The position numbers and the translations under genes are program-made. The notes under the pieces were generated by a model. That model saw only the letters and a list, made by a program, of their open reading frames with translations. It was not told the DNA's origin and did not search any database. DNA of 64,000 nucleotides from an uncultured Prevotellaceae bacterium (GTDB lineage Bacteria > Bacteroidota > Bacteroidia > Bacteroidales > Bacteroidaceae). Of the stretch, positions 42,975-59,042 are shown piece by piece. How positions within the stretch are numbered: the stretch's first letter is position 1; each line of letters opens with the position of its first letter. The DNA lies in assembly GCA_900319225.1 (NCBI GenBank), contig ONNV01000007.1, forward strand, positions 1 to 64,000, read 5' to 3'.

Positions 42975-44360
42975 ATGTTGTTAAGAGACTCCATCATCGC
43001 TATGATGGCCTTGTTTGCAGCCTTTTCCTGTCAGAGTAAAGACACTCAGTTGGAAACAGCGCTCGGGTCGGCCGGTGAAAACCGGCCGACCATAGAGGCT
43101 GTCCTTAAACACTACCGTACTCAGGATCCTGTTCCCGAGAAATTTGAAGCGGCCTTGTTCCTTATTAAGAATATGCCTGCGCACTATTCTTATATGGGTG
43201 ATTCCATTTACCTGTATTATGACTATGCTCAGCGCATTTTGAGTAATGACACCCTTACACCGGAGTCACAGCGTGACTCTCTGCTCATGGTAACCAAAAG
43301 GCTCTATTCTCATTTACCTGAGCGCACCGTCCCTGATACAAGAGTAATATCAAAGGATTATCTTATACATAATATAGACCTCTCTTATGACCAGTGGAAA
43401 AACTGTCCATGGGCAAGCCAGCTCACTTTCGATGAGTATCTGGAATGGCTGTTGCCATATAAGGCAGTAGATCTGCAGGAACTGGATTATTGGCGTGACA
43501 CCTTATCACTGTGCTATGGTGACGGCATGCGTAATCCCGTAGTTAATGATGTAGAGTACAATACCACGACAGGTGTGGCCGATATGATCCGCAATGAGGT
43601 TCTCGGCAAGATTAACCGTCATGGCCTCTACACCGAAAGCGGACTGCCGCTGCTCAGTGCATCACTCCTGCACCGGCAGACATTCGGACATATTCCGGAT
43701 TATGCGTTGCTGGCAGCTTTGTCATTCCGCAGTATGGGAGTGCCGGTGGTTATCGATGAAACCCCTGTAGGAGCAAGGGATGAGGCTGCAACACGTTGGT
43801 TCGTGATCTTGTCGGACCGTGGCAAGGAGGTTACATCGGAGTGGGATCTTGCCACACAGATAGGCTGGTCTTTCTTTCCGTATGAACGTGGCCCTAAGGT
43901 TTTCAGACAGACATATGCAATAGATGAACGCAGGCTTGACTATATAAAGAACGCTAAGTACGTATATCCCTTTGATATTACCGTAAAGGACGTCACAGAC
44001 AAATACTTTCTTTCATCACATGTCTCTGTAACTATTGAAAAACACAACCGGAGCAAACTAAAGGACCGATACGTTTATATTGCTTCGGCCATTCGTTCAA
44101 CTCAGGACCATATCGCACCCAGTGCGGGTCCTGAGCCGGACGGTTGGAAAATTGTAGATTTCTGCAAACTAAAGGGTAGTAAGGCTGTTTTCCGGAATAT
44201 GGGCCGTGAAGTAATGTACATAGTTCTGGGTTATGACGGCGTTGCTCTTGTACCGATATCAGATCCCTTTATATTAAAGAAGGATGGAACCACCCAATAC
44301 GTATCTGCTGATACGGTTTTCTCTCCATATTTGAATAAATGGTGTAATAAACCAATCTGA
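42975..44360 (+). CDS. Transglutaminase-like lipoprotein without catalytic Cys/His
   Basis: A 461-residue lipoprotein (signal MMALFAAFSCQS, lipidated Cys about 20). It aligns along its length with the protein at 44368: AGENRPxxExxLxHY, KNMPAHYSYMGD, SKDYLIHNIDLSYDQWKNCPW, LTFDEYLEWLLPYK. In the transglutaminase-like core the paralogue reads FGSCYDY and SEGHSW, whereas this one reads FGHIPDY (Ile240 at the Cys position) and EAATRW (Thr at the His position). It is therefore probably inactive as an enzyme. It lacks the C-terminal discoidin-like domain. It lies 7 nt upstream of its paralogue. A binding or scaffold role is inferred, not shown. Confidence 0.87.
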   Translation: MLLRDSIIAMMALFAAFSCQSKDTQLETALGSAGENRPTIEAVLKHYRTQDPVPEKFEAALFLIKNMPAHYSYMGDSIYLYYDYAQRILSNDTLTPESQRDSLLMVTKRLYSHLPERTVPDTRVISKDYLIHNIDLSYDQWKNCPWASQLTFDEYLEWLLPYKAVDLQELDYWRDTLSLCYGDGMRNPVVNDVEYNTTTGVADMIRNEVLGKINRHGLYTESGLPLLSASLLHRQTFGHIPDYALLAALSFRSMGVPVVIDETPVGARDEAATRWFVILSDRGKEVTSEWDLATQIGWSFFPYERGPKVFRQTYAIDERRLDYIKNAKYVYPFDITVKDVTDKYFLSSHVSVTIEKHNRSKLKDRYVYIASAIRSTQDHIAPSAGPEPDGWKIVDFCKLKGSKAVFRNMGREVMYIVLGYDGVALVPISDPFILKKDGTTQYVSADTVFSPYLNKWCNKPI

Positions 44361-44367
44361 ATCAATC

Positions 44368-46344
44368 ATGAAAAACATCTTTGGATTTATTGGGGCTTCG
44401 GTCTCATGTGTTCTCCTGGCAGTTTTAAGCAGTTGCAGTAATGAACAGAGGTATCTGCGTTATGCCCTTAAGGTTGCCGGCGAGAACCGGCCGCAACTTG
44501 AACGGGTCCTTGACCACTATAGGCATGAGGACAAGGATCCGTCCAAGTTAGCTGCAGCCAAATATCTTATAATCAACATGCCGGGACACTTCTCATATAC
44601 AGATACGGCAACCGTTGATTTCTATTATAACGCAGCTCTTAAGATTCAGCAATCCGGCGGCACCCCGGAGTGGCAGCGTGATACCCTACGCTCCATCAGT
44701 GACGCGCTCAATTACAGTCTGTCAAGAGCCGTAGAGTCTGACATAAAGCTGGTAACATCCGATTATCTGATTGACAACATTGACAAGGCATTCCATGAGT
44801 GGCGAACCCGTCCGTGGGCTCAGCATCTCACATTTGATGAATTCAGGGATTGGATATTGCCATATAAGGTCATAGATTATCAGTTGTTGGATTCATGGCG
44901 TGACACCCTTTCGGCACGTTTCTCGGACAGTATCAGCTCTGTGCCGTCAGATGATGACCGCCGTCTCTCCATTTACGGTGCGATAGATATAGTCCGTAAT
45001 GAGATTCATACCAAGAATCCGCCGCGTGTACTGTGGGAGGAACGCAGCGGCATACCGTTGAGAAGTGCCCAAACATGGGCTAATATGACATTCGGCAGCT
45101 GTTATGATTATGTAACTATGGGAACAGCCGTTTTCCGTAGCCTGGGTCTTCCGTCTGTAGTGGACCGTGTTCCTGTCTGGGGGCGTAACAGTGAAGGTCA
45201 CAGTTGGTTTACATTCCTTTCAGACCAAGGAAAGGAGACTCCAACCATCAATTCACTTATTGTAGCGGCTGGCATGCCGTTCTATCCGTACGAACGCATT
45301 CCCAAAGTCTGGCGCAATACGTTTACCATTAACCGTGACATTGTAAGATACCGTAATACGGCCAAATATGTCCATCAGTTTGACCTGTGCGAGCATGATG
45401 TGACGGACCATTACGTAAGGACATCGGACATAGAGGTTCAGTTGATGAGTGACATCAGGATTGATGATAAGTATGCCTACATAGCAGTGTTTGTCAACTC
45501 AGGTGGTCCGTCATGGCGTGTCCTGGATTACGGAGAGGTCAAGCACGGTAAGGTCTGTTTCAGGAACATGGGTAGAAACGTTCTTTACATAGCGCTCTAT
45601 TACAACGGTTCTGTCCTTGCTCCGGCAAGTGAACCGTTTATCCTGGAAAAAGACGGCGGGGTACGTTATATCCATAGCGAAGGAGGTGACGGCGTACGCA
45701 GCATTGACATTCGTCGCAAGTACTTTGAGTCTTATAATGTGGTAGATATGCGTAGGCGTATACTTGGCGGTAAGATTCAGTGCGCAACACGTCCAGATTT
45801 CAGTGATTCGGTTACGCTCTACACAATAGAGACAACCAAAATTCCTGACAAGATTCCCGTTTGTGCCCGTGCCCCTTACCGTTACTGGCGTTATCTCTCA
45901 CCCAACGGCTCATGGGGTAGCGTAGCCGAGGTCCTGTTTATGGATAGTCTGGGCAATCCGGTAAAAGGCTGTGGAATTGCAGTCCCCGAGGCAGGACAGG
46001 ATGCAATAGACCGGGCATATGACGGAGACATGCTCAGCAATTTTGAGGTAAACCAACCAGATGGAAACTGGGTGGGGCTGGATTTGGGTACTCCCGGTGA
46101 TGTGTCATTCGTAAGGATTGTCCCCCGTAGCGATGACAACGACATATGCCCCGGCAACCAATATGAACTGATGTTCTTTGACGGACTGGACTGGTTCTCA
46201 ATAGGCCGTAAAGTGGCCGATGACAACACTCTGCATTATGAGAATGTTCCCATAAACAAACTGCTATGGTTACGTAACTATACCAGAGGTAATGACGAGC
46301 GTCCGTTCCTGCTGGATCATGACGGCAACATAGAATGGTGGTAA
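44368..46344 (+). CDS. Transglutaminase-like lipoprotein with C-terminal discoidin-like domain
   Basis: A 658-residue lipoprotein (LLAVLSSCSNE, lipidated Cys about 23). The N-terminal helical part (about 30-190) leads to a transglutaminase-like core with C245 in TFGSCYDY and H278 in SEGHSWFTF; an Asp should follow. After a beta-rich middle (about 340-500) the last 110 residues (FEVNQPDGNWVGLDLG, VRIVPRSDDNDICPG, YELMFFDGLDWFSIGR) resemble an F5/8-type (discoidin) carbohydrate-binding domain. The family may cleave or cross-link peptide or glycan-peptide substrates at the cell surface. A paralogue with a dead core precedes it, and another begins at the window's left end. Confidence 0.88.
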   Translation: MKNIFGFIGASVSCVLLAVLSSCSNEQRYLRYALKVAGENRPQLERVLDHYRHEDKDPSKLAAAKYLIINMPGHFSYTDTATVDFYYNAALKIQQSGGTPEWQRDTLRSISDALNYSLSRAVESDIKLVTSDYLIDNIDKAFHEWRTRPWAQHLTFDEFRDWILPYKVIDYQLLDSWRDTLSARFSDSISSVPSDDDRRLSIYGAIDIVRNEIHTKNPPRVLWEERSGIPLRSAQTWANMTFGSCYDYVTMGTAVFRSLGLPSVVDRVPVWGRNSEGHSWFTFLSDQGKETPTINSLIVAAGMPFYPYERIPKVWRNTFTINRDIVRYRNTAKYVHQFDLCEHDVTDHYVRTSDIEVQLMSDIRIDDKYAYIAVFVNSGGPSWRVLDYGEVKHGKVCFRNMGRNVLYIALYYNGSVLAPASEPFILEKDGGVRYIHSEGGDGVRSIDIRRKYFESYNVVDMRRRILGGKIQCATRPDFSDSVTLYTIETTKIPDKIPVCARAPYRYWRYLSPNGSWGSVAEVLFMDSLGNPVKGCGIAVPEAGQDAIDRAYDGDMLSNFEVNQPDGNWVGLDLGTPGDVSFVRIVPRSDDNDICPGNQYELMFFDGLDWFSIGRKVADDNTLHYENVPINKLLWLRNYTRGNDERPFLLDHDGNIEWW

Positions 46345-46380
46345 TGAATGCTTATGATAATTGAAATAATAAAGTGTAAC

Positions 46381-46472
46381 TCAACAATAGCTTTATCTGC
46401 CGGGGCAGCTCCCGTGCATAAGCTCCAAGGGTGCATTGGAGCTGCCCAAGGCGGATTTATCACGATTGTTGA
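46381..46472. repeat. Imperfect long inverted repeat with competing hairpins
   Basis: TCAACAAT (46381) and ATTGTTGA (46465) are the outer arms. Inside, GGGCAGCTCC (46403-46412) pairs with GGAGCTGCCC (46438-46447). AGCTCCAA (46421-46428) can instead pair with TTGGAGCT (46436-46443), using the same right arm. The two inner pairings exclude each other, as in RNA switches. No protein gene is seen in the 46345-46736 gap. Confidence 0.6.
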
Positions 46473-46615
46473 CTAAAGAATTGAATTATGTGATAGAAAA
46501 CTGGAGAGCAATAACAGATCTGGAAAGAGAGAAGGGATAAGACAGTGCCACCCTTGCAAAGTTCGCTGTCAATATCCCTTCCCGATCCAGGTCCATAGTT
46601 TAACCTAAACCTGAA
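46381..46615 (-). ncRNA. Candidate structured RNA, leftward, unidentified
   Basis: A perfect TATCTTTG promoter on the complementary strand (46621-46628) points into about 230 nt without a protein gene. The transcript would contain a long hairpin, 46520-46590: CTGGA/TCCAG, an internal loop, AAGGGATA/TATCCCTT, then ACAG/CTGT. It would end in the G/C-rich competing hairpins at 46403-46447. I looked for tmRNA, RNase P and SRP signatures and found none; a 6S-like RNA cannot be excluded. Inference from promoter and structure only. Confidence 0.35.
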
Positions 46616-46620
46616 CGCCG

Positions 46621-46628
46621 CAAAGATA
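46621..46628 (-). promoter_or_regulatory. Orphan -7 box facing the non-coding gap
   Basis: The complementary strand reads TATCTTTG. No reading frame of credible composition follows it leftward, so it may drive a non-coding RNA. Confidence 0.5.
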
Positions 46629-46652
46629 GTGGATTTTATTAAAGTTCTGTTG

Positions 46653-46679
46653 TTTGGCATAACCTATGGTGTTGCCAAA
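46653..46679. promoter_or_regulatory. Dyad symmetry between the orphan promoter and the NVEALA-like gene
   Basis: TTTGGCA-ta-ACC and GGT-gt-TGCCAAA form a 27-nt dyad with two mismatched pairs. It lies just upstream of the leftward TATCTTTG box and 57 nt before the rightward peptide gene. It could be an operator for either, or a small terminator. Confidence 0.4.
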
Positions 46680-46736
46680 TACCATCAATTAGTCTAAAAC
46701 AATAATTAAAAACGTATTAATCAATCATTTAAATTT

Positions 46737-47141
46737 ATGAAGAAGAAATTTATTATTCTGGCAACCACATCTTTGTTTTCACTTGGACTTGCCTTGTATG
46801 CAAATCACTCTAACTCCATTGATGTTCTCGGCAGCAGTGATGTAGAAGCTCTATCTGACGGAAATGAGCATGTAATAAATATGGAAAATAGAATAGAAAC
46901 TGATGATTACATAGAGTATACAGACTTACATAAATTGTTTGTAAAACATGGATCAAATAAGGAAAGATGGGGTAACCAATTAAATACATGTAAACTAAGA
47001 GGTGCTGGCTGCTTGATAGATCTCGATGATCAAACAGATAAGGAAAGGACTGATAATGAATCCTGGGCATCAAAAGTACAAGAATGGGTGCTGGAGACAG
47101 CTAAGGAAGTGGTTATTAATTTAATCAAAAAGATATTTTAG
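46737..47141 (+). CDS. NVEALA-like secreted peptide precursor
   Basis: A 134-residue precursor. The basic start and hydrophobic span MKKKFIILATTSLFSLGLAL (1-20) are followed by SNSIDVLGSSDVEALSDGNE. The DVEALS at 35-40 corresponds to the NVEALA motif of small Bacteroidetes secreted proteins, and its A-L-S has the A-x-S/A shape of a signal-peptidase cut site. The predicted mature part holds two cysteines (C85, C92; NTCKLRGAGC) and a C-terminal amphipathic helix ending VVINLIKKIF. Downstream are a CxxC lipoprotein and a signal peptidase that could oxidise and cut it. It is longer than typical NVEALA proteins. Role (signal, toxin or surface peptide) unknown. Confidence 0.75.
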   Translation: MKKKFIILATTSLFSLGLALYANHSNSIDVLGSSDVEALSDGNEHVINMENRIETDDYIEYTDLHKLFVKHGSNKERWGNQLNTCKLRGAGCLIDLDDQTDKERTDNESWASKVQEWVLETAKEVVINLIKKIF

Positions 47142-47150
47142 TATTTAGAC

Positions 47151-47188
47151 AGAAGGTGTCTTGTACAAATATGTACAAAACACCTTCT
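47151..47188 (+). terminator. Strong hairpin after the peptide gene, possibly a leaky terminator
   Basis: AGAAGGTGT pairs with ACACCTTCT and TTGTAC with GTACAA, with a C/A mismatch between them and a 6-nt loop. Only TTAAAA follows, so termination may be partial. Such a site would make more peptide mRNA than mRNA for the downstream proteins. Confidence 0.6.
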
Positions 47189-47212
47189 TAAAACTATTAA
47201 GCAAAAGATAAT

Positions 47213-48349
47213 ATGAAATCTATTGTATATGTTTTGACTCTTTTCATAATGGTTTCTTGTATAAATCAGAGACATGATGAGCAGTCTATTAAGATAGAGA
47301 ATAATTATATTGACCTACCATTTGATGAATGTGTGGATAGCTTCTATGTAAGAAAACTGATAAGTAATAATCCCTTAACTGAGCTTTATTTGACTCAGGT
47401 TGTCGATGATCAGTTATTCATAATAAGTGAAGATGATAGGATTATTTATTACTTAAAAAATGATTCCGTAGTTTCCAAATTAGATGCATTTGGGCGAGGT
47501 AGAGGAGAATATTTTTCTATTTCAGGATTTGCTTACTCTAAAGAAGATAGTATTCTATATATTGGGTCGGCTGGTAGTAATAAAATACTTAGTTACAAAG
47601 TACCTTCATTTAGTTTTATTTCCTCAATTGATTGTGATTTGGAATTATCTACAATGACATTTTGGGCCGGTAAAATAATTGCAATATGTCACACAAGTAG
47701 TATAGAATCTCCTAGACTTAATGGTATTTATGAGATTGATGTAAAAACAGGTGACTATAAAAAAATTCTAGATGTTGACTATCTAAGTGCAGTCAATATG
47801 GGTTTAAATAATATTTCTTTCTCAGATAGTGAATTGTTGATCTCTGTACCAGGTTTTGACAATATTATTTACAAAGTAACAAATGGTGGCCTGGTTCCGA
47901 CTAACGAATTTCATTATGGAGAAATGAATCTTGATAGATCTTTTTTTAACGTCGACGAAACAAATTCAAAAGAATATGCTGATAAAATGGTTGAATTATC
48001 CGAAAAGGAATACTGTTTAGGTGGTTCTTATCCGATAACATACGATAGTAATAATTGTTCTTTTTGGAGGTGTGTTAACATTGATAATGAGTATGTCTAC
48101 TTGTACACTATTCTTCATAATGAACTGTCTTCATCTTACAAATTATATATTCCTGGTTTTTCAGAACCCGTCATTCCTTTTTGTGTAAATAACAGATGGT
48201 ATATGAGTATTATAGAGGGACCGGTAGAGTCTGTTGTTGATGATGAGAGTATTCTTGAAGGAATAGGACTTGATGTGATTAAAACACTTAAGGAACAAAC
48301 CTTTGATAATCCTATTTTATTGTATTACAAGATAAAGGAAACAATATGA
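47213..48349 (+). CDS. 6-bladed beta-propeller lipoprotein
   Basis: A 378-residue lipoprotein (signal MKSIVYVLTLFIMVSCINQ, Cys about 16). The body shows repeated beta-strand blades, and the family marker FGRGRGEYFSISGFAY (near residue 94) corresponds to the GxGxGEY/F turn of Bacteroidetes 6-bladed propellers (DUF5128/TolB-like). It probably binds a peptide or other partner at the membrane. It follows the peptide gene and its hairpin and overlaps the CxxC lipoprotein gene by four bases (ATGA). A/T-rich like the whole cluster. A second propeller is at 51392. Confidence 0.85.
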   Translation: MKSIVYVLTLFIMVSCINQRHDEQSIKIENNYIDLPFDECVDSFYVRKLISNNPLTELYLTQVVDDQLFIISEDDRIIYYLKNDSVVSKLDAFGRGRGEYFSISGFAYSKEDSILYIGSAGSNKILSYKVPSFSFISSIDCDLELSTMTFWAGKIIAICHTSSIESPRLNGIYEIDVKTGDYKKILDVDYLSAVNMGLNNISFSDSELLISVPGFDNIIYKVTNGGLVPTNEFHYGEMNLDRSFFNVDETNSKEYADKMVELSEKEYCLGGSYPITYDSNNCSFWRCVNIDNEYVYLYTILHNELSSSYKLYIPGFSEPVIPFCVNNRWYMSIIEGPVESVVDDESILEGIGLDVIKTLKEQTFDNPILLYYKIKETI

Positions 48350-48858
48350 ATAAATTGAATATAGTAATACTACTTCTAGTATTTCCATTTCTTATTTGTT
48401 CTTGCCGACATAACAAAGATGATAGAATAATTGATAGCTCCCAACAAACATTCTTATTATCAAAGAGTATCAATAAAGAATTGGATTCATGTTCCATAAA
48501 AAGGATTATTCTATATGTGGAAAATCAAACATGTATATCGTGCGTTGAAGAAACTTTATATCCTCTTTTTAGTTTATTAGTAGACTCTTTCCCCAATATT
48601 CATCCATTGTTGATTATTCATGATGAGAATGGTAATACTACAAATTATAAGTGGAATGAACAGTACAAAAGAGTTTTCCGTATAGTAGATTCGAACAAAG
48701 ATTCTATAAGACTACTTAACAGTTGGATTCCTCAAAACCATGTGTATTATGGATTCCTATTAGACAGTATCAACAAGGTGAAGGAGTGTGGCTTTTTATA
48801 TAACAATATATTTATTCAGGATTGTAAAGATGTGATTAAAGAGGATTTAATACGTTGA
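48346..48858 (+). CDS. Small lipoprotein with thioredoxin-like CxxC
   Basis: A 170-residue lipoprotein (FPFLICSCRHNK, lipidated Cys 18 or 20). A strand IKRIILYVENQTCISCVEET (about 51-70) brings C63 and C66 to the place of a thioredoxin-type active site, followed by a helix and further alternating strands and helices. Overall sequence is unlike TlpA and shorter, so it is a divergent thioredoxin-fold protein. It overlaps the propeller gene by four bases. The two cysteines of the nearby secreted peptide are possible substrates. Redox role inferred from the motif alone. Confidence 0.75.
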   Translation: MNKLNIVILLLVFPFLICSCRHNKDDRIIDSSQQTFLLSKSINKELDSCSIKRIILYVENQTCISCVEETLYPLFSLLVDSFPNIHPLLIIHDENGNTTNYKWNEQYKRVFRIVDSNKDSIRLLNSWIPQNHVYYGFLLDSINKVKECGFLYNNIFIQDCKDVIKEDLIR

Positions 48859-48878
48859 ATTAAGTATCATATTTAGAA

Positions 48879-50498
48879 ATGGAGAATGAGATAAGAAAAC
48901 GTATGCAAGGTAAAGTTCTATTAGACCAATTAATTGTTCTATTATCTATCATTTTATTTTTTGAATTATCGTTCCCCTTTTTAAAGGAGGTACATTGTCC
49001 ATTCTTCTTTTTTGAGCAATTTGTAATGGCATATTGCTTGTTTAGAACTCTATATTATATAAATCATAGATGGATTTCATCATTGTTAATTGTAGTTCTG
49101 GCATTCATATGCGCTCACGAGTTGTTTCTAGGTTTTTCTCAGTTGATTGAGAACTTTAGAAATATCAAAGCACAAGATGTATGTGTTGGGTCCTTCTCAA
49201 ACTCTGGACCGTATGCTTGTTTTTTAGCTGTTTGTTGTAGCTTGTTTGTTGTAGTTTATGTGAAGGAATCGAAAGCAGTGATTAAGGCTATATTGGCCAT
49301 ACTAGTGCTTATATCTTTTATACTATTGACGTGTACGCTAAGTAGAGCTGCCATCATATCACTGTCGATAAGTATGTTTCTATTAATACTCAAAAACAAT
49401 AATATGGTCGTCTTGATACGCAAATACTGGATTTACATATTGATTTCTTTCATATTATTGGGAATAGGTACATACTTAATAAAAAAAACTTCTGCCGATG
49501 GTCGTTTCCTAATGGCTAGGATAAACTTAAAGATGATCAGAGAAAACGGACTAACAGGGATAGGATTCGGTAATTACTGTGGTGAATATGGAAGAACTCA
49601 GGCAAGATTCTTTTCTGAATTTATGAAAGATAGTGCTGATGATATGGATATTTCCAATATCCCAGAGGGTTTGCGAATGGTTGCAGATTGTCCTAGGTTT
49701 TCTTTCAATGAATATCTAAAGATGGGAGTAGAGAATGGGCCGATTGCAATGTTATTAATGGTAGGCATTATGTTGTTAGGCATTGTTCAAACCTATAAAA
49801 GTAATAGCATTTGGTGCTACCCTCTAGTTGTCCTTTCCGTATTTGCTTGTTTCTCATATCCCTTTGAAGTTGATATCCTGTTGCTGATAACAATCTTATG
49901 TTTGGCTTCAAATAATAATCAACAATCAAACAATTTAGGTGGACTCTTTCTTCTTGTTTTGGTGGTAGTCTTTGGATCAGTGTATTATGTGAGAAAAGAA
50001 CAAATGTATAATAAGAATATCAAGGCTTACTCTTCATTCTATAGTAAGATGTTCAGAAATAGGTCAAAACTGTACTACATACATGACACAGATGTTATTC
50101 CTGAAGGGATATATCATGAAAGCATGTTATTCAATTATGGTCAAAGTCTTTCCGAGAATGGAGATTATACCAGGAGCGATTCTGTACTAAAAATGGGAAC
50201 AAAAATCAGCAGCGATCCCATGTTCTGGAATGTCATGGGAAATAACAGTCTTGCTCAAGGCAAATACCGTGAAGCTGAGGAACGCTATAAGCACGCCTTC
50301 TATATGGTGCCCAATAGGCTTTATCCGCTATATCTGTTGGCTAAACTATATCATACAGAAGGCGATACCGTAAAGTTTCTTGATATGGCAGATAAGGTAG
50401 AGACGTTCATACCTAAGGTGGAGTCAGTAAATACAGAACGCCTTCGTAATGAGATAAGAGATCTAAAGTCAGGTTACATAACAGAACAGGATGAATAA
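48879..50498 (+). CDS. O-antigen-ligase-like membrane protein with C-terminal TPR
   Basis: A 539-residue protein with about 10-11 membrane spans (15-375). Features of the Wzy/WaaL superfamily are GSFSNSGPYACFLAV, LLTCTLSRAAI, and the large periplasmic loop with SADGRFLMARINLKMIRENG then GIGFGNY. The C-terminal 150 residues are soluble TPR-like repeats (WNVMGNNSLAQGKYREAEER, LYPLYLLAKLYHTEGD). Family members join glycans to lipid A or proteins. Its place between a CxxC lipoprotein and a signal peptidase (8-nt overlap with the latter), rather than in a polysaccharide cluster, suggests it may glycosylate or otherwise process the peptide. Substrate inferred only. Confidence 0.85.
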   Translation: MENEIRKRMQGKVLLDQLIVLLSIILFFELSFPFLKEVHCPFFFFEQFVMAYCLFRTLYYINHRWISSLLIVVLAFICAHELFLGFSQLIENFRNIKAQDVCVGSFSNSGPYACFLAVCCSLFVVVYVKESKAVIKAILAILVLISFILLTCTLSRAAIISLSISMFLLILKNNNMVVLIRKYWIYILISFILLGIGTYLIKKTSADGRFLMARINLKMIRENGLTGIGFGNYCGEYGRTQARFFSEFMKDSADDMDISNIPEGLRMVADCPRFSFNEYLKMGVENGPIAMLLMVGIMLLGIVQTYKSNSIWCYPLVVLSVFACFSYPFEVDILLLITILCLASNNNQQSNNLGGLFLLVLVVVFGSVYYVRKEQMYNKNIKAYSSFYSKMFRNRSKLYYIHDTDVIPEGIYHESMLFNYGQSLSENGDYTRSDSVLKMGTKISSDPMFWNVMGNNSLAQGKYREAEERYKHAFYMVPNRLYPLYLLAKLYHTEGDTVKFLDMADKVETFIPKVESVNTERLRNEIRDLKSGYITEQDE

Positions 50499-51351
50499 AG
50501 AAACTGAATCTCCAAAACAACAGAGCACCAACACTGCAGCACTTGAAAGGATTGTCGATATCCTGTGTCGTGTTGTGCTATTCATATTGCTCGTAGGTGC
50601 CTTACATTTTGGACGCCGTATATTCATAGCCGAGCGATTCATAATCCCGTCGGAGTCCATGAGCCCCACACTGGAGCCTGGAGATAAAGTGTGGGTTAAC
50701 AAACTGCTTTATGGAGCCAGGATATACAAGTCTTTTGACTTTGAAGACCATGCTCCGCTCAAGTGTTTCCGGATGCCGGGGTTGAGAAAAATCCGTTCTG
50801 GTGATGTGATATGTTTCAATTATCCATTGGGTTATGACAAGTGGACAAAGATAGAGTTCAAGATAAACTACGTCTATTGCAAACGTGTTGTTGGAACTCC
50901 CGGTGATACCATTGGCATTAAAGATGGGGTCACGTGGAATAGTAATTACAACGGAATAATTGGAGTCCAGGATAATCAGCTTGCCATACAGAATACCCCT
51001 GACAGCATACTGTGGCGTACCAAGTTCATGGCAACTATGCCATTTACAAGACCCATGTGGACAATGAAGAACTTTGGACCTCTTTACGTGCCGGAAAAAG
51101 GCGTAACGATAGAACTGGACTCAGTTGGACGTGCCATATATGGTCCGGTCATTGAATATGAGTCAGGCTCATGGCCGGATGATGAAGTTTGCAGTCATAC
51201 ATTCCGGCATGACTACTACTTTGCATTTGGAGACAACTGTCTTGACTCAAATGATTCCCGATACTGGGGATTCATTCCGGAGGATTTTATTATCGGAATT
51301 GTGGGGGGACGGAAGGTTCGTAATAGTTGTGTCAATCAGAAAACATATTAA
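50491..51351 (+). CDS. Signal peptidase I (S26), cluster-dedicated
   Basis: A 286-residue enzyme with one N-terminal membrane span (about 24-44). The nucleophile S56 is in IIPSESMSPT and the general-base K131 in YCKRVVGTPGD; the box AFGDNCLDSNDSRYWGFIPED follows at about 245-265. All S26 boxes are intact. It cuts after small residues in A-x-A-type sites, and the EALS/EALA motif of the peptide encoded upstream has that shape. The gene overlaps the O-ligase-like gene by 8 nt. A remnant of a second copy of its C-terminus is at 52640. Housekeeping function cannot be excluded, but the context argues for a specialised enzyme. Confidence 0.92.
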   Translation: MNKETESPKQQSTNTAALERIVDILCRVVLFILLVGALHFGRRIFIAERFIIPSESMSPTLEPGDKVWVNKLLYGARIYKSFDFEDHAPLKCFRMPGLRKIRSGDVICFNYPLGYDKWTKIEFKINYVYCKRVVGTPGDTIGIKDGVTWNSNYNGIIGVQDNQLAIQNTPDSILWRTKFMATMPFTRPMWTMKNFGPLYVPEKGVTIELDSVGRAIYGPVIEYESGSWPDDEVCSHTFRHDYYFAFGDNCLDSNDSRYWGFIPEDFIIGIVGGRKVRNSCVNQKTY

Positions 51352-51356
51352 TTATA

Positions 51357-51369
51357 GGGGCTTCGGCCC
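51357..51369 (+). other. Small UUCG-tetraloop hairpin between genes
   Basis: GGGC-TTCG-GCCC (with one extra G) lies 5 nt after the signal peptidase stop and 22 nt before the next gene. It is G/C-rich in an A/T-rich setting. No T-tract follows, so RNA processing or stability is more likely than termination. Confidence 0.4.
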
Positions 51370-51391
51370 AAAACATTAAAAAAATAAGATT

Positions 51392-52615
51392 ATGAAAAAG
51401 ATTTTTTGTTTGTGTTTATTATTTGCTTTTGGAGTTTCATGTTTTAGTAAGAACAACAGTGGAGATTTATTTAAATATACCTCCAAGCATTATATTGATG
51501 TGGATAACAAAACGAACCGTTTTGATATCATTGACAGAATTGGAGATATTAGTGTATTGAATTTGAAGGCTGGAGATGATTGGATGTATATGGATTCTCC
51601 AATGATGGCTGTTTCTGATAATGGTTATTATTTTCTTTCAGATAGGACTTACTATTTCTTAGGTTACGACAAGTCTGGCAATCTTAAGTTCTCAAAACCA
51701 CTTACAGGAAGGGGCAGAGGTGAAGTACAGAATGTGGGTAACATGTTTATTATGAATGATACGCTGATGCTATATGATCTTGTGGCAGGCCGACTGTTAC
51801 GTTATACAGATAAGGGAGAATTCATAGGTTATGACAATAAGGCAGAGATAAAAGTGAGTTATCTTTATAAGAACTCAGATTCTTATTTGGGCCTCACCGT
51901 TTATGGAGAGAATGAAAGCAATAATCATTACTGTATTACCTATAATAAAGACGCTTCCAGATATGACAGTTATCTGACTTTGCCGCCTTATTTGGTAGCG
52001 TTTAATGGAACTGTAGGATATACGGAATTATCATATATTTATCATGATACACTTCGATTCATGTTGAATTATGATTACAATATTTTTTCTTTGACCAAGA
52101 ACGGGGTTGAATCAACTTACAGGTTTAAGGCTGATAAGGAGATGACAAAAGACATCTTTGATGGAATTACCGGGGCTGAACTGATGCTCCCGGGTAAAGA
52201 AGCTATGGTCTATAATGGGGGGGCCCTTAGGGATATATCCGGCTTATTTGAAACGGACAAATATATAGTAGCCAATATTTTTATAAACAATAAATACCAT
52301 TCCATGTTGTATGACAAGACGCAAAACTCTTGTGGTATTATCTTACGTCCTGACAGTTTCTTTGAAGAGTCACTGGTTCCGGAATTGACTACATTGGATA
52401 TATGGAAATATATATGGTTCTCTTTCACACGGTTAAGAGAGTATAATAATGCAATTTATGGTTGTGTTTCTTACAGTTTATACTACATTCTTTCAAAAAC
52501 CGAATCTCTTCATGATGCAAAAATCAGAGCTCTCTATAAGCAATTGAAGAGTTATGTTGAAGAACAGAACCTTTCTGAGGGAGATGCAATCTTTTTAAAG
52601 ATGGAGCTTTTATAA
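51392..52615 (+). CDS. Second 6-bladed beta-propeller lipoprotein
   Basis: A 407-residue lipoprotein (signal MKKIFCLCLLFAFGVSCFSK, Cys about 17). The family marker LTGRGRGEVQNVGNMFIM appears near residue 109, as in the propeller at 47213, and blade-like beta repeats continue to about residue 350. A helical tail (SKTESLHDAKIRALYKQLKS) follows. The two propellers are related but clearly diverged. This gene follows the signal peptidase and is itself followed by a fragment of another signal peptidase, so it may belong to a duplicated propeller-peptidase unit. Partner unknown. Confidence 0.85.
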   Translation: MKKIFCLCLLFAFGVSCFSKNNSGDLFKYTSKHYIDVDNKTNRFDIIDRIGDISVLNLKAGDDWMYMDSPMMAVSDNGYYFLSDRTYYFLGYDKSGNLKFSKPLTGRGRGEVQNVGNMFIMNDTLMLYDLVAGRLLRYTDKGEFIGYDNKAEIKVSYLYKNSDSYLGLTVYGENESNNHYCITYNKDASRYDSYLTLPPYLVAFNGTVGYTELSYIYHDTLRFMLNYDYNIFSLTKNGVESTYRFKADKEMTKDIFDGITGAELMLPGKEAMVYNGGALRDISGLFETDKYIVANIFINNKYHSMLYDKTQNSCGIILRPDSFFEESLVPELTTLDIWKYIWFSFTRLREYNNAIYGCVSYSLYYILSKTESLHDAKIRALYKQLKSYVEEQNLSEGDAIFLKMELL

Positions 52616-53403: not shown

Positions 53404-54897
53404 ATGAAAAGACCTTTTCTAAGAGTTTTGCTCCTGCTGCCGGCGCTGTTGGCGCATTCCCTGTGTGGAGGACAGATTATCGGTCCCAGAACACTTACAA
53501 TGCAGGAAGTGATTCAATTGGCTCAGGAGAACTCAATCTCTTCAATGAGTAACCGTAACAATTTTGTGGCGTCGTATTGGAATTACCGCTCATATAAGGC
53601 GCAGCTGTTGCCGTCATTGAGCCTTAGTGCCAATTTGGGTGAATTTAACCGCTCGCTGGATAAACTGCAGGACTTCAATACGGGTGCTGTGGCTTTCAGG
53701 TCCAGTTACAACATGTCAAACAGAGTTACGCTGAATTTCAGTCAGAACATTCCGCTTACAGGTGGTCAGGTTACTCTGTCTACCGATATGCAGAGACTGG
53801 ATCAGTACAGCCCGTCACGTCTTACATCCTATTATGCACAGCCCATTTATCTGAGTTATGCCCAGAGTCTGTGGGGATACAACCAGTTCAAGTGGGAGAA
53901 AAAGACACAGCCCAAGCAGTATGAGGTGGCTAAACGCCAGTACATTGAGAGTATGGAGCAGGTTAACCAGACAGCCGCCTCTTATTTCTGGGGTTACGTA
54001 AGGGAAAAGGAGAAATATGAACGTGCCAAAAAGAGTTTTGAGGACAGCAAACGTCTGTTCGCGGCCGGTCAGACACGTTTTGAGATGGGTACCATAACTC
54101 GTGACCAGCTTATGCAGATTGAGGTGTCCATGCTTAATGACTCCCTGCAACTGAGTTTGGTTACGGTCAGCCTGCGTTCGTCACTGAACCGTCTGTGCTC
54201 TTACATTGGTTATAAGGAGGATACGGAGCTGAACCTTAAGATTGACTATGAGATCCCTGATGTGACTCTGGATTATGATGATATGCTGGATAGGGCTCTG
54301 CATAACTCATCATTCCAGCTGAGTCAGGATATAGAGTATATTGAGGCCGAGTCCAGTATTGCAAGAGCCAAGTCAGAGCGTGGCCTGTCTGCCAGACTGA
54401 ACGCCAGATTCGGTATGTCGGGCTCATCGGAGAAATTCAGGGATACATTCATTGAACTGAAAGACCAGGAGGTTATTGGTGTTCAACTTAATATCCCCAT
54501 TTTGGATTGGGGCCTGGCACGCGGACGTGTACGTATGGCCGAGGCTCGCGCGCAGACCACACGTAACCGTCTGGAGCAGAATATGATTGATTACCGTCAG
54601 GACCTGCTTACTCAGGTCATGCAGTTCAACAACCAGCGCAGTCGGTGTGAGATCTCCAAACGTGCAGCCGACCTGGCTGAGGAGAGCTATGAGCTTGCGC
54701 TCAAGAATTTCAGCAGCAGTTCAATGACCATGACCCAGCTGGATCAGCTTAAGGAGAAACGTGACGATGCCTTGAGCAACTATGTGTCCAATGTGGCCGA
54801 TTTCTGGAACTTTTATTTTACAATAAGACGTACCACGTTGTATGACCCGGAATCGGGCAAGGACATTAGTGTTGAGTTTGACAACCTTATCAAGTAA
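53404..54897 (+). CDS. TolC-family outer-membrane efflux protein
   Basis: About 497 residues from the start at 53404 (MKRPFLRVLLLLPALLAHSL, signal peptide to about CGGQ). Two OEP domains with long alternating helices are visible (LTMQEVIQLAQENSISSMSN; then QTTRNRLEQNMIDYRQDLLT and RAADLAEESYELALKNFSSS in the second half). Such proteins form trimeric channels across the outer membrane. It is the first gene of a four-gene efflux operon, with a 19-nt gap to the adaptor gene. The ATG six codons upstream at 53386 gives a less typical signal peptide. Substrate unknown. Confidence 0.92.
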   Translation: MKRPFLRVLLLLPALLAHSLCGGQIIGPRTLTMQEVIQLAQENSISSMSNRNNFVASYWNYRSYKAQLLPSLSLSANLGEFNRSLDKLQDFNTGAVAFRSSYNMSNRVTLNFSQNIPLTGGQVTLSTDMQRLDQYSPSRLTSYYAQPIYLSYAQSLWGYNQFKWEKKTQPKQYEVAKRQYIESMEQVNQTAASYFWGYVREKEKYERAKKSFEDSKRLFAAGQTRFEMGTITRDQLMQIEVSMLNDSLQLSLVTVSLRSSLNRLCSYIGYKEDTELNLKIDYEIPDVTLDYDDMLDRALHNSSFQLSQDIEYIEAESSIARAKSERGLSARLNARFGMSGSSEKFRDTFIELKDQEVIGVQLNIPILDWGLARGRVRMAEARAQTTRNRLEQNMIDYRQDLLTQVMQFNNQRSRCEISKRAADLAEESYELALKNFSSSSMTMTQLDQLKEKRDDALSNYVSNVADFWNFYFTIRRTTLYDPESGKDISVEFDNLIK

Positions 54898-54916
54898 GAA
54901 TAGAAATTATACGAGT

Positions 54917-56011
54917 ATGAAAAAGCATATTTTAAAGATTGCGTCAATAGTTTTGTTTGCAGCACTTGCATATGGAATGAACAGCTGCAAGGGTAAGAAA
55001 GAGAAGAATGAGAATACTGATGATACGGAGATGGCCCGCGGTACATACAATGCCGAGAAGAATGTGGTGACCGTGGTGCCTCTGGAGCGTAAGGCTTTTA
55101 ACAAGCAGTTGGTTTGCAACGGTAAACTTGAGGCTCAGAGTAAGGTTACCTTACAGTTTGCGACACAGGGTACTGTGGCTGAGATCGGTGTCCGTGACGG
55201 ACAGAAGGTGCAGAAGGGACAGATCCTGGCATCACTTGACAAGGAGCAGCCCCGCCGTCAGCTGGAGCAGGCCCGTCTGTCATATGACAAAGCCGAGATG
55301 AGTCTGGCCGATAAGCTGCTGGATTACGGTTATTCACTCTCTGATACCGCCAGGATTCCGGCAGACCAGAAGCGTGTAATATATATCAACTGCGGTTTCA
55401 TTGATGCTCAGATGTCACTTGCCAACGCAGAGAGGACATATGAGCAGTGTGACCTTAGGGCCCCTTTCAGCGGAAAGGTTGCCAGCCTTAAGGGACGTGT
55501 ACATGAGCAGAGCGGACAGTTGTGCACTCTGATTGATGACAGCCGTTATCTGGTACGTTTCAGCGTGCTGGAGACAGAGTATAAGTTTATCCGCGTGGGC
55601 CAGCAGGTGCTGGTATCCCCGTTTGTGGATAATGATGTGGAACTTAAGGGTTCAATCATATCCATCAACCCCACTGTTGACCAGAACGGCCAGATTGCAG
55701 TAACGGCACAGGTTCCGGGATCAGATGACCTGATGGACGGTATGAACGTGCGCATCACTGTTGAGAACAGCATTCCTGACCAGTTGGTGGTTCCCAAAAG
55801 CGCAGTGGTTATACGTGACAACATGGATGTGCTGTTCCGATACAAGGACGGAAAGAGTCTGTGGACATATGTGAATGTGCTCATGTCAAACACCACTGAG
55901 CATGTGGTTGAGGCCAATAAGGACCGTGGAGCCGATCTTGAGTTAGGTGACCTTATTATTACCAGCGGAAACCTTAATCTTGGTGATGAGGCTCCGGTAG
56001 TTCTGGAATGA
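54917..56011 (+). CDS. RND efflux adaptor (membrane fusion protein)
   Basis: About 364 residues from the start at 54917 (MKKHILKIASIVLFAALAYG), with a lipobox-like MNSCKG around residue 20; an earlier in-frame ATG lies inside the TolC-type gene. The order is typical: barrel-sandwich half (KVTLQFATQGTVAEIGVRDG, then QKVQKGQILASLDKEQPRRQ), alpha-hairpin, second lipoyl half (CDLRAPFSGKVASLKGRVHE) and beta-barrel. It bridges the RND pumps and the outer-membrane channel. Its stop adjoins the first RND gene (1-nt gap). One adaptor serves two pump subunits here. Confidence 0.93.
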   Translation: MKKHILKIASIVLFAALAYGMNSCKGKKEKNENTDDTEMARGTYNAEKNVVTVVPLERKAFNKQLVCNGKLEAQSKVTLQFATQGTVAEIGVRDGQKVQKGQILASLDKEQPRRQLEQARLSYDKAEMSLADKLLDYGYSLSDTARIPADQKRVIYINCGFIDAQMSLANAERTYEQCDLRAPFSGKVASLKGRVHEQSGQLCTLIDDSRYLVRFSVLETEYKFIRVGQQVLVSPFVDNDVELKGSIISINPTVDQNGQIAVTAQVPGSDDLMDGMNVRITVENSIPDQLVVPKSAVVIRDNMDVLFRYKDGKSLWTYVNVLMSNTTEHVVEANKDRGADLELGDLIITSGNLNLGDEAPVVLE

Positions 56012-56012
56012 T

Positions 56013-59000
56013 ATGTTCAAAGGATTGACCAACCGCCCCATAGCGGTGACCATGGTGCTTATAGCAGTTATGGTCCTGGGAATTGCGGCCATACGTAAAC
56101 TGCCGGTATCACTTGTTCCCGATATCAATATACCGCAGATTACGGTTCAGGTTACATCACCTGACCGCAGTGCCCGTGAACTGAATGACATCCTGTTGGA
56201 GAGGTTGCGCAGTGAGCTGGTGCAGGTGCCCCACCTGCAGGATATTACCTGTACTGCCCGTGACGGCAGCGGCCTTATCCAGATGACATTTGAGTACGGA
56301 GCAGATGCCGATTATATCTTTATCGATGTAAATGAGCGTGTGGACCGTGCAGGATGGCCTCAGGGTGAGGAGCGTCCCATGATAGCACGTGCCAGTGCCA
56401 CGGATATCCCGGCATTCTTTATAAATGTCTCCATCAAGAAGGGTCTCAACACCAGTGATAACCGTTTCATGGAGATGAGTGATTTTGTACGTCAGGTCAT
56501 AGTACGCCGTCTGGAGCAGATTCCTGAGGTGGCAATGGTGGATGTATCGGGACAGGTGTACCCGCAGTTGCTTGTCATACCTGACATGGAGAAACTGCGT
56601 GCTTTAGGTACCAATGAACAGCAGCTTAGCAATGCCATACAGAGTGCCAACGTTAACCTGGGTAGCCTATCCATCCGTGACGGTGAGTACAGGTTTGACG
56701 TCCGTTTTGAGTCGAGCGTGGTTACTCGTGAGGATGTTGAGAACGTATGGCTCAAACTGGGCGGCCGCACCTATCAGATTAAGGATCTGGCCGAGGTACG
56801 TGAGGAGCAGCAGCGTAAGAAGGGTGAGGTTACCAGTGACGGTTCACAGTGTGTGACACTGGCAGTCATAAAGCGTACCGATGCCCGAATGGCCAATCTG
56901 CGTGAGGGTATCCAGAAACTGATGGATGCCTTTGACAAGGATTATCCGGATATGGAGTTTACCATTACGCGTGACCAGACGGAGCTGCTGGATTACTCCA
57001 TCAACAACATGGTACGTAACCTGCTGTACGGTGCCCTGTTTGCCTGTATCATCATTTTCTTCTTTATGCAGGATGTGCGCAGTCCGCTGCTGGTGGTCAT
57101 TACCATACCTACGGCACTCATACTGTCATTCCTGTTCTTCTATGTGCTCAAGATATCAATCAATATCATTTCCCTGTCCGGTCTGGTACTGGGCTTGGGT
57201 ATGATGGTGGATAACTCCATCATCACGATTGATAACATCACGCAACGGTGGATGAAGGGAGAGCCCCTGCAGGATGCCTGTGTTTACGGTACCCAGGAGG
57301 TGTTCACACCTATGTTGAGTTCCGTGCTCACCACTTGTGCCATATTCATTCCTCTGATTTTCATGAGCGGAATTGCAGGTGCCCTGTTCTATGATGAGGC
57401 AATGGCAGTCACCATCACTCTGATATCGGCACTCATTGTATCTGTAATGGTCATTCCGGTATTCTATTACCGTTTCTATAAGAACCAGCCCTGTTTTACC
57501 CCCAACAAGTTCATAAGCAAGATAAGCGTGGGTAACATGACTGGTGGTTATGACCGTATACTGAGTTGGTTCTTCCGCCGCAGGGGTGTGATGTGGGGCA
57601 TATTCGGTGCTGCAATATTGCTGATAGGCGTGCTGTTCATCAAGCTTGACAAGCAGAAACTGCCTGTACTTTCACACAGTGACACTCTTGTAAACATTGA
57701 GTGGAACCAGCGCATATCAATTGAGGAGAACAACAGCCGTTGTGAGCAGATTGTGGCTCAGTTCCCGGAAATGGTTGAGCAGTACACCTGCATGACCGGT
57801 GCACAGCAGTTTGCCCTGTCGCATACACGTGAGCTGACACTGTCGGAGGCTATAATCTATATCAAGGCCGGTTCTACTAAAGATATTGACAAGATTGAGG
57901 AGCAGGTAGCGGAGTATATCCATAAGACCTGGCCGGATGCCGTTCACAGCAGTCAGGCATCGGGTAATATCTTTGATATGCTGTTCTCTGACCATGAACC
58001 GCCGTTGGTGGCACGCATCAAACGTACCAACGGCAGTACCCCGGATCCTGAGCAGCTTACATCACTGCTGGGCGCCATACGTACAGAACTGCCTGACATT
58101 GAGATTCAGCCGGCCGAGTGGAATGAGTATATTGAGCTTGTTGCAGACCCTGAGCGTCTGGCTCTCTATGAGGTTGATTTCAATACGCTGCTCAGTTATC
58201 TGCAGAAATCAATGAACTCAAGCTCCGTATTGCGTATATCCAAGGGCGATATCTCCATGCCTGTGGTTATAGGTGTGGGCGAGAAGGAGGCACGTGACCT
58301 TATCCAGAACCAGTATCTGGACACCCGCGGCGGACGCGTTCCGCTTGAGATCCTGCTCAAGGAGACACGTAACCGTGACCTTAAGTCCATAACATCAGGT
58401 GTGGACCGTGAGTTCTATCCGTTGGTACTGAATGTGAAAGGTAAGGATGCACGCCGTGCCATGGATGCCATTCAGAAAGTGGTACGTTCCGATGATAAGT
58501 TTGACGTGAGTTTCTCAGGTACATATTTTACCAACCGCGAGATGATAAAGGAGCTGTGCGGAGTGCTTGTGATATCAATCCTGCTACTGTTCTTTATCCT
58601 GTCGGCTCAGTTTGAGAGCCTGATACAGCCATTCATCATACTGAGTGAGCTTATCATTGACATCTTTGCTGTGCTTGGTATCCTGTGGATCTTTGGCGAG
58701 ACTCTGAACCTCATGTCCATGATAGGTATGGTGGTTATGTGCGGTATCGTTATCAATGACTCCATACTTAAGGTGGATACCATAAACCGTCTGCGCGAGA
58801 GCGGTATGGGTCTTAAACACGCTATTCTTGAAGCCGGCAGCCGCCGTCTAAAGGCTATAGTAATGACATCACTCACCACTATCCTGGCCATCGCTCCGTT
58901 CCTGGTGCGTGGTGATATGGGTAGTGACCTGCAGTATCCTCTGTCACTGGCTCTCATAAGCGGCATGATTGCAGGTACGTTTGTGAGCGTGTTCTTTGTA

Positions 59001-59042
59001 CCCCTGGCTTATTACGTAATCTATAAGCACACAGAAAGATGA
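56013..59042 (+). CDS. RND efflux pump subunit 1 (AcrB/MdtB-like)
   Basis: A 1009-residue inner-membrane pump with 12 spans and two large periplasmic loops (about 35-330 and 555-850). It begins MFKGLTNRPIAVTMVLIAVM and has PVSLVPDINIPQITVQVTSP. In TM4 the proton-relay segment reads LGMMVDNSIITIDNI, with a single Asp (VDN) rather than the Asp pair of AcrB, as in several non-proteobacterial pumps. It exports drugs, lipids or metabolites using the proton gradient. It overlaps the second RND gene by four bases, so the two are made together and may form a mixed trimer like MdtBC. Confidence 0.93.
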   Translation: MFKGLTNRPIAVTMVLIAVMVLGIAAIRKLPVSLVPDINIPQITVQVTSPDRSARELNDILLERLRSELVQVPHLQDITCTARDGSGLIQMTFEYGADADYIFIDVNERVDRAGWPQGEERPMIARASATDIPAFFINVSIKKGLNTSDNRFMEMSDFVRQVIVRRLEQIPEVAMVDVSGQVYPQLLVIPDMEKLRALGTNEQQLSNAIQSANVNLGSLSIRDGEYRFDVRFESSVVTREDVENVWLKLGGRTYQIKDLAEVREEQQRKKGEVTSDGSQCVTLAVIKRTDARMANLREGIQKLMDAFDKDYPDMEFTITRDQTELLDYSINNMVRNLLYGALFACIIIFFFMQDVRSPLLVVITIPTALILSFLFFYVLKISINIISLSGLVLGLGMMVDNSIITIDNITQRWMKGEPLQDACVYGTQEVFTPMLSSVLTTCAIFIPLIFMSGIAGALFYDEAMAVTITLISALIVSVMVIPVFYYRFYKNQPCFTPNKFISKISVGNMTGGYDRILSWFFRRRGVMWGIFGAAILLIGVLFIKLDKQKLPVLSHSDTLVNIEWNQRISIEENNSRCEQIVAQFPEMVEQYTCMTGAQQFALSHTRELTLSEAIIYIKAGSTKDIDKIEEQVAEYIHKTWPDAVHSSQASGNIFDMLFSDHEPPLVARIKRTNGSTPDPEQLTSLLGAIRTELPDIEIQPAEWNEYIELVADPERLALYEVDFNTLLSYLQKSMNSSSVLRISKGDISMPVVIGVGEKEARDLIQNQYLDTRGGRVPLEILLKETRNRDLKSITSGVDREFYPLVLNVKGKDARRAMDAIQKVVRSDDKFDVSFSGTYFTNREMIKELCGVLVISILLLFFILSAQFESLIQPFIILSELIIDIFAVLGILWIFGETLNLMSMIGMVVMCGIVINDSILKVDTINRLRESGMGLKHAILEAGSRRLKAIVMTSLTTILAIAPFLVRGDMGSDLQYPLSLALISGMIAGTFVSVFFVPLAYYVIYKHTER

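Follow-up and report, generated by a model that had tools for sequence, protein, structure and literature searches.

We analyzed a 64,000-nucleotide stretch of contig ONNV01000007.1 (assembly GCA_900319225.1; here called the window) from an uncultured Prevotellaceae bacterium, in which a short gene for an NVEALA-type precursor peptide stands before a run of genes for envelope proteins. These genes belong to a recurrent system for peptide maturation and probable secretion with cognate propeller lipoproteins. Gene calls throughout were mechanical, and all window features described here lie on the forward strand. The precursor gene (46737 to 47141) encodes 134 amino acids; its DVEALS box (residues 35 to 40, positions 46839 to 46856) is followed by two Cys residues, and an alignment of 96 precursors places the proposed cut after Ser40. 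A hairpin (47151 to 47188) separates this gene from that of a six-bladed propeller lipoprotein, the putative cognate partner (47213 to 48349; PF17170, E 5e-15). Next come a CxxC lipoprotein with a predicted thioredoxin/TlpA-like fold (48346 to 48858), a Wzy_C-like membrane protein with a TPR tail (48879 to 50498; Wzy_C, E 1e-8), a short S26 signal peptidase with Ser56 and Lys131 intact (50491 to 51351; E 2e-29), and a second propeller lipoprotein without a peptide gene of its own (51392 to 52615; PF17170, E 1e-6). An initial annotation, made from the letters alone, had named these genes, and all are present where it placed them. Its description of the block from 47213 to 51351 as coupled almost throughout by overlaps held for two of three junctions (4 and 8 bases), but the CxxC and Wzy_C genes are separated by 20 bases. 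The A/T richness that it had noted is real: in 1-kb bins, GC content is 0.30 to 0.41 between 46 and 53 kb, compared with 0.43 to 0.51 from 40 to 46 and from 53 to 58 kb. The amphipathic C-terminal helix ascribed to the peptide falls within chance, its moment being equalled by 619 of 2,000 shuffles; for four same-genus homologues, the moment was reached by 23, 50, 108, and 260 of 2,000.

Several partners had been overlooked: a transglutaminase-like pair, a TolC-MFP-RND-RND pump (MFP, membrane fusion protein), and, as partners at other loci, DUF1573 and MauE. The pair lies upstream of the precursor and consists of TG1 (42975 to 44360), a homologue that lacks the Cys and His found in TG2, and TG2 itself (44368 to 46344), a lipoprotein in which Cys245 and His278 are conserved and which is linked to the set in other genera. 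Downstream lie genes for a TolC-like outer membrane channel (53404 to 54897; PF02321), an MFP (54917 to 56011; HlyD_3 and HlyD_D23, with the start picked within the open reading frame [ORF] 54842 to 56011), and the pump subunits RND1 (56013 to 59042), assigned by subfamily comparison to a system-linked subfamily, and RND2 (59039 to 62233).

The NVEALA kinship claimed for the peptide holds for its leader and not for the curated family profile. PF14055, with its cut-off of 27 bits, matched neither the window peptide nor anything else in the window's genome; at E values up to 1, the peptide matched none of the families in Pfam or NCBIfam, and it had only two weak PHROGs matches (E 0.05 and 0.09), while two other proteins found none there. 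Across the class, only 4 of 395 genomes have a PF14055 match at E 1e-5. The profile does match the precursor at the equivalent place of one same-genus locus (L068; G024:C1:286633) at E 1.7e-4, or at 20.1 bits and E 5e-4, under the cut-off, in a second search. We also built a hidden Markov model (HMM) of 81 leaders from PF14055-seeded loci (L113 to L151), at most one of them from the window's genus (L151), which was searched against 4,557 ORFs of the window, same-genus, and control loci. Places 1 to 13 were taken by same-genus precursors and the 14th by the window peptide (16.9 bits, E 0.0015), which ranked first among the 246 window ORFs; the best control ORF scored 12.6 bits and an unrelated window ORF, that of the MFP, 16.3 bits. 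Because the HMM ranks the same-genus precursors and the window peptide at the top, the window leader is, judged by its sequence, homologous to NVEALA leaders, although its score is weak, and the peptide is best described as a divergent NVEALA-type precursor. It has same-genus relatives in genomes G027 and G029.

The 96 precursors (83 from other genera) were selected by motif pattern, a length below 230 amino acids, and lack of assignment to another family. One member (L055_g2) was aligned at TVKSLT, its likely box being TVEALS further on, and one or more true precursors, among them L052:12968-13237, escaped the selection. The box reads N (93 of 96), V or I (96), E (92), A (95), L (92), and A, S, or T (93), counts that are partly built in by selection on the motif pattern; the drop in conservation behind the box is not. 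Information is 3.0 to 4.2 bits within the box, 0.9 directly behind it, and 0.2 to 0.5 from the seventh residue onward, with 2.45 bits at the position three residues past the box, which is E in 65 of the 96. The initial annotation had read the box as the cut site of the linked peptidase; a small-residue box of the A-x-[AST] type is present, conservation falls behind it, and we infer that S26 cuts there. The distance from the hydrophobic segment (best 13 residues) to the proposed cut has a median of 24 residues (21 to 26 in 83 of 96), which would put the box further out than the housekeeping signal peptidase normally reaches. The catalytic Ser56 and Lys131 of the short S26 enzyme are kept in all 48 of 51 family members that reach both positions. 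Behind the box, the mature parts have a median length of 42 residues, and 44 of 96 carry four Cys. A second type of same-genus locus yielded 17 precursors of 125 to 198 amino acids with the boxes IAYA, VAYA, FAYA, FAYS, NVEAK[ST], NVQAKA, and VKADA, which, read by eye, keep Ala at -3 and a small residue at -1. This arrangement fits the rules for signal peptidase I. At four such loci (L070, L080, L081, and L082), two tandem precursors occur in which an IAYA/VAYA box replaces NxEALx.

The co-occurrence that the initial annotation proposed to look for was found: in many genera, the peptide gene is linked to those for S26, propeller, CxxC, and Wzy_C/TPR proteins. Within the window's genus, we collected 37 stretches around S26 relatives, which with the window make 38 loci; an S26 gene was called in 35, and in 25 of these the Wzy_C/TPR gene adjoins it. 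The reverse sample was seeded with PF14055 and comprised 39 stretches from 32 genomes (38 from other genera plus L151 from the window's genus; 650 kb); the controls were 19 stretches taken arbitrarily from these genomes (365 kb). HMMs built from window-genus loci alone matched S26 (16 matches), Wzy_C/TPR (18), CxxC (29), propeller (66), transglutaminase-like (19), and DUF1573 (13) proteins in the 39 loci, and the same six models gave a single match, to a propeller, in the controls. Short S26 genes lay within 15 kb of a listed PF14055 match in 24 of 37 cases, compared with 1 of 34 for LepB and 1 of 19 for short S26 genes listed as adjoining LepB; since the 37 include three LepB neighbors (G096:C16:20458, G113:C4:289426, and G129:C9:77763), 24 of 34 and 1 of 22 are the fairer counts. 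These distances, like those for RND genes below, rest on 150 listed PF14055 matches from 33 of 35 genomes, with fragments left out. Many genomes of the family carry a second short S26 gene directly beside LepB, mostly unlinked to peptides. Several parts together with a precursor were found in, among others, the cultured Prevotella aff. ruminicola Tc2-24, Paraprevotella xylaniphila YIT 11841, and Bacteroides rodentium JCM 16496, as well as in B. timonensis, a Muribaculaceae isolate, and a Proteiniphilum metagenome-assembled genome. Of the more distant S26 loci inspected, 12 lack the set, apart from one with a propeller and two with an RND gene.

The propeller is the usual immediate partner of the peptide. 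With small unassigned or opposite-strand ORFs skipped, the next same-strand gene after the 96 precursors encodes a propeller in 77 cases, a CxxC protein in 7, another precursor in 6, and something else in 6. The pairs diverge together: across 67 pairs from 28 genomes, core similarity and propeller similarity are correlated at r 0.775, compared with 0.20 ± 0.07 when partners are shuffled within genomes (p 0.0005), and the correlation persists when near-identical cores are removed (r 0.416 versus 0.044 ± 0.040, p 0.001). Of the 291 occupied columns in 75 paired propellers, just two exceed 90% conservation: the lipobox Cys (74 of 75) and one Gly (72 of 75). The comparison with enzymes of the set is uneven, with 33 of 45 S26 and 22 of 33 transglutaminase-like proteins coming from the window's genus, and it was repeated with other genera alone: columns conserved at 90% or more number 3 of 287 in propellers (n = 65), 55 of 287 in S26 (n = 12), and 67 of 625 in transglutaminase-like proteins (n = 11). 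The paired propellers have no conserved catalytic residues; their conservation looks like that of a variable binding scaffold and not of an enzyme. The earlier suggestion that the propellers bind the peptide gains support in this form, as pairing, co-divergence, and the variable scaffold all point to a cognate binding protein.

The gap between the two genes is itself a recurrent element. As the initial annotation had seen, a hairpin follows the window precursor gene (47139 to 47212 folds at -22.6 kcal/mol, z -6.5, equalled by 0 of 200 shuffles); what it had missed is that the hairpin recurs between peptide and partner genes. In 55 such gaps of 35 to 170 bases, 84% have z < -2 (mean -4.1), compared with 31% (mean -1.5) of 172 same-strand control gaps from the same loci (Mann-Whitney p 1.6e-12).

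For the CxxC lipoprotein, no Pfam family exceeded its cut-off. Its two Cys residues are kept in 43 and 42 of 44 members, and its model (mean predicted local distance difference test score [pLDDT] 82) matched a Geobacter thioredoxin and ResA in Foldseek with probability 1.00, E values of 6e-4 and 8e-4, and modest template modeling (TM) scores of 0.43 to 0.53. The predicted fold and the conserved CxxC are consistent with the proposal that this protein takes part in forming the peptide disulfide. A longer CxxC protein fused to DUF1573 is encoded at L113:2342-3229; in the window's genus, DUF1573 occurs as a lipoprotein of its own. MauE genes occur in loci L194 and L196. The Wzy_C/TPR protein conserves Arg156, Arg209, Asn277, and Gly287. 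In its family, the position of the His of the WaaL/PglL ligase motif, H[NSQ]x9Gxx[GTY], is occupied by F or Y in 41 of the 42 members with a residue there. The protein was considered as an O-ligase, and as the source of a lipid or other modification of the peptide, and because the motif His is absent, we rejected both, the latter having been proposed by the initial annotation. TG2 relatives keep the Cys in 33 of 33 and the His in 32 of 33; its model (pLDDT 89.8) has a local match to 3isr (probability 1.00, E 0.003, root mean square deviation 3.6 over 124 columns), its whole-length matches to animal transglutaminases reach E values down to 3e-5 with TM below 0.21, and its match to PF01841 (E 0.027) lies below the cut-off. 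Among 14 same-genus genes of the TG1 type, 12 are without both Cys and His and 2 were unmatched by the pattern; TG1 is probably inactive.

Evidence on the pump came from a survey of 201 genomes, the PF14055 and RND1 searches being taken as one sample (the names agree where listed). At an analyst-chosen cut-off of E 1e-170, the RND1 subfamily was present in 29 of 35 PF14055-positive and 20 of 166 PF14055-negative genomes (Fisher p 2.6e-16, uncorrected for relatedness); 8 of these 20 belong to the window's genus. For the other 12 (L153 to L164), stretches around the pump served as a prediction test of the full set, with a partial outcome: propellers were present in all 12 and a box precursor in 3 (L155 by eye, L159, and L164). 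The pump and propellers co-occur more widely than the whole set. In seven other-genus genomes, selected on the strength of pump genes already seen at their loci, RND1 is 40 to 46% identical to that of the window, the next RND copy being 38% identical in one and 23 to 27% in the rest. The TolC, MFP, and RND HMMs gave 5, 8, and 9 matches in the 39 loci, compared with one each in controls. In Prevotella aff. ruminicola Tc2-24, precursors lie between the MFP and RND genes. Co-occurrence and adjacency make the pump the probable exporter of the peptide. A separate observation is that the pump operon of L198 / L141 contains a tandem row of five precursors whose leaders are very similar and whose cores differ. 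A distinctive change in the RND proton relay was considered and dropped: the Asp-Asn arrangement is also found in an unlinked control RND protein, and RND2 keeps one Asp.

Together, these observations suggest a pathway. The precursor, whose signal spans the membrane and whose N[VI]EAL[AST] box is conserved, would enter through Sec, and the short S26 peptidase would cut behind the box and free the core. Periplasmic folding of the freed core, most often with four Cys, would fall to the TlpA-like CxxC lipoprotein, joined in some loci by MauE or DUF1573, a role we infer for the three from linkage, fold, and fusion. The TolC-MFP-RND-RND pump would then export the core, the propeller lipoprotein encoded directly downstream would bind its own core, and the hairpin may keep peptide mRNA in excess of partner mRNA. 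For the propeller, we judge immunity or self-protection in an antagonistic peptide system to be the most likely function because the pairs diversify together, no recurrent signaling gene was seen, and extra propellers occur without peptides. A Bacteroidales peptide secretion system with propellers for self-protection is, in our estimate, the best explanation of the data, with a probability of roughly 0.53. The broader proposition, that Sec-entered precursors, dedicated S26 release, periplasmic oxidation, RND export, and propeller self-recognition or immunity define a new Gram-negative secretion class, is tentative and should be given somewhat less than even odds. Of the initial reading, linkage, box, CxxC fold, and cognate propeller carry over into this scheme, without the ligase or lipidation step.

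Several observations weigh against it. Of 30 RND1 copies in PF14055-positive genomes, only 16 have a listed PF14055 match within 20 kb (20 if a short S26 gene within that distance also counts); the copy in G177 is 962 kb distant, and further copies lie on contigs that have neither. No S26 gene was found in the stretches fetched around the pump in L153 to L164 (0 of 12), and the control matches of the pump HMMs come from one unrelated TolC-MFP-RND operon (L190). At L058, L059, and L065, S26 relatives (55 to 69% identical) lie among unrelated genes with neither peptide nor propeller. The mature parts have a median net charge of -2, unlike common cationic antimicrobials. Leaders also track propellers slightly (r 0.212 versus 0.128 ± 0.024, p 0.0055), if much less strongly than cores do, and co-divergence can arise without binding, from a pair inherited as one cassette; the selection effect on the box counts belongs with these points.

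The cognate co-divergence and the variable binding scaffold would equally suit secreted signals, each with its propeller as receptor or envelope sensor, and the small, disulfide-rich, neutral to negative cores would be in keeping with such a use. Several pairs occur in one genome, however, and no recurrent regulator or signaling family stood out beside the set in the gene tables, where most unassigned genes are unannotated; we consider signaling unlikely, at about one chance in four. A little less probable still is that the propeller, or the CxxC protein in seven cases, is no immunity protein or receptor but a carrier or folding partner specific to its peptide, required for maturation or for passing the peptide on to the pump. 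The replacement of the propeller by CxxC behind a single class of core (CxxxGxxxCP in 7 of 7, compared with 6 of the 89 remaining precursors) argues for this, as does the finding that most are lipoproteins by lipobox pattern, whereas the lack of conserved catalytic residues in the paired propellers and the extra, peptideless propeller of the window argue against it. The linked transglutaminase-like lipoprotein with its conserved Cys and His raises the thought of surface or envelope subunits that are cross-linked, anchored by propellers, and not secreted; with hypervariable cores and a linked efflux pump subfamily, this is improbable. Least credible is chance co-localization of fast-evolving envelope genes around an ordinary precursor cut by a housekeeping peptidase. 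Some S26, pump, and propeller genes do occur without precursors, but the controls are nearly empty for the six non-pump families, LepB is unlinked, and the same set is found in several families, so that we regard this as very improbable.

The system places the NVEALA family, which is not known to have an assigned role, and several loosely named envelope proteins (DUF5128 propellers, DUF1573, CxxC lipoproteins, and TPR Wzy_C proteins) in a single context that can be tested, in bacteria of the gut and rumen that include cultured species. If the proposed pathway is correct, peptides leave through an RND pump and each propeller is the specific partner of a peptide; neither is known to have been described. 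The system could reveal a new way for gut and rumen Bacteroidales to compete or communicate. The set had been put forward as undescribed, and among the open-licence PubMed Central papers searched, we found neither a description of it nor the word NVEALA.

Each part resembles something known and departs from it. The NVEALA family shares the signal segment, the box, and the small Cys-rich tail, and it seeded the other-genus loci, but its profile does not match the window peptide, and Pfam describes a family and not a system. The S26 enzyme exceeds the signal peptidase I cut-off (TIGR02227) and has the Ser/Lys dyad; at about 285 amino acids, it is separate from the roughly 490-residue LepB of the same genomes and is linked to peptide genes. 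The Wzy_C match above the cut-off (PF04932) and the conserved Arg, Asn, and Gly residues recall WaaL/PglL, from which the protein differs at the motif His. AcrB-type tripartite pumps (PF00873) share the TolC-MFP-RND gene set, whereas the pump here is of a distinct subfamily, linked to peptide genes, and has two RND genes. With polymorphic peptide/immunity pairs, the loci share, by analogy, a trait that we found here: a variable core with its own variable partner behind a constant leader. A GG/C39-type leader was considered and rejected, as the box ends mostly in A, S, or T and the Gly directly behind it is not conserved. Eight window proteins (42975 to 52612) were scanned for C39, and the sole match, at E 0.19 and far below the cut-off, is to the TPR portion of the Wzy_C protein; the genes of other loci are not all annotated. 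According to one account, Bacteroidales peptide systems are mostly of the kind with GG leaders and C39 transporters (PMC10352776). The ribosomally synthesized and post-translationally modified peptides with GG leaders and the bacteroidetocins with C39/PCAT exporters described there share with the present loci a leader, a variable core, and processing and export genes in the same locus. The present loci differ from these in their membrane-spanning leader, in the linked S26 and RND genes that stand in place of a C39 ABC transporter, and in their propeller lipoprotein partners.

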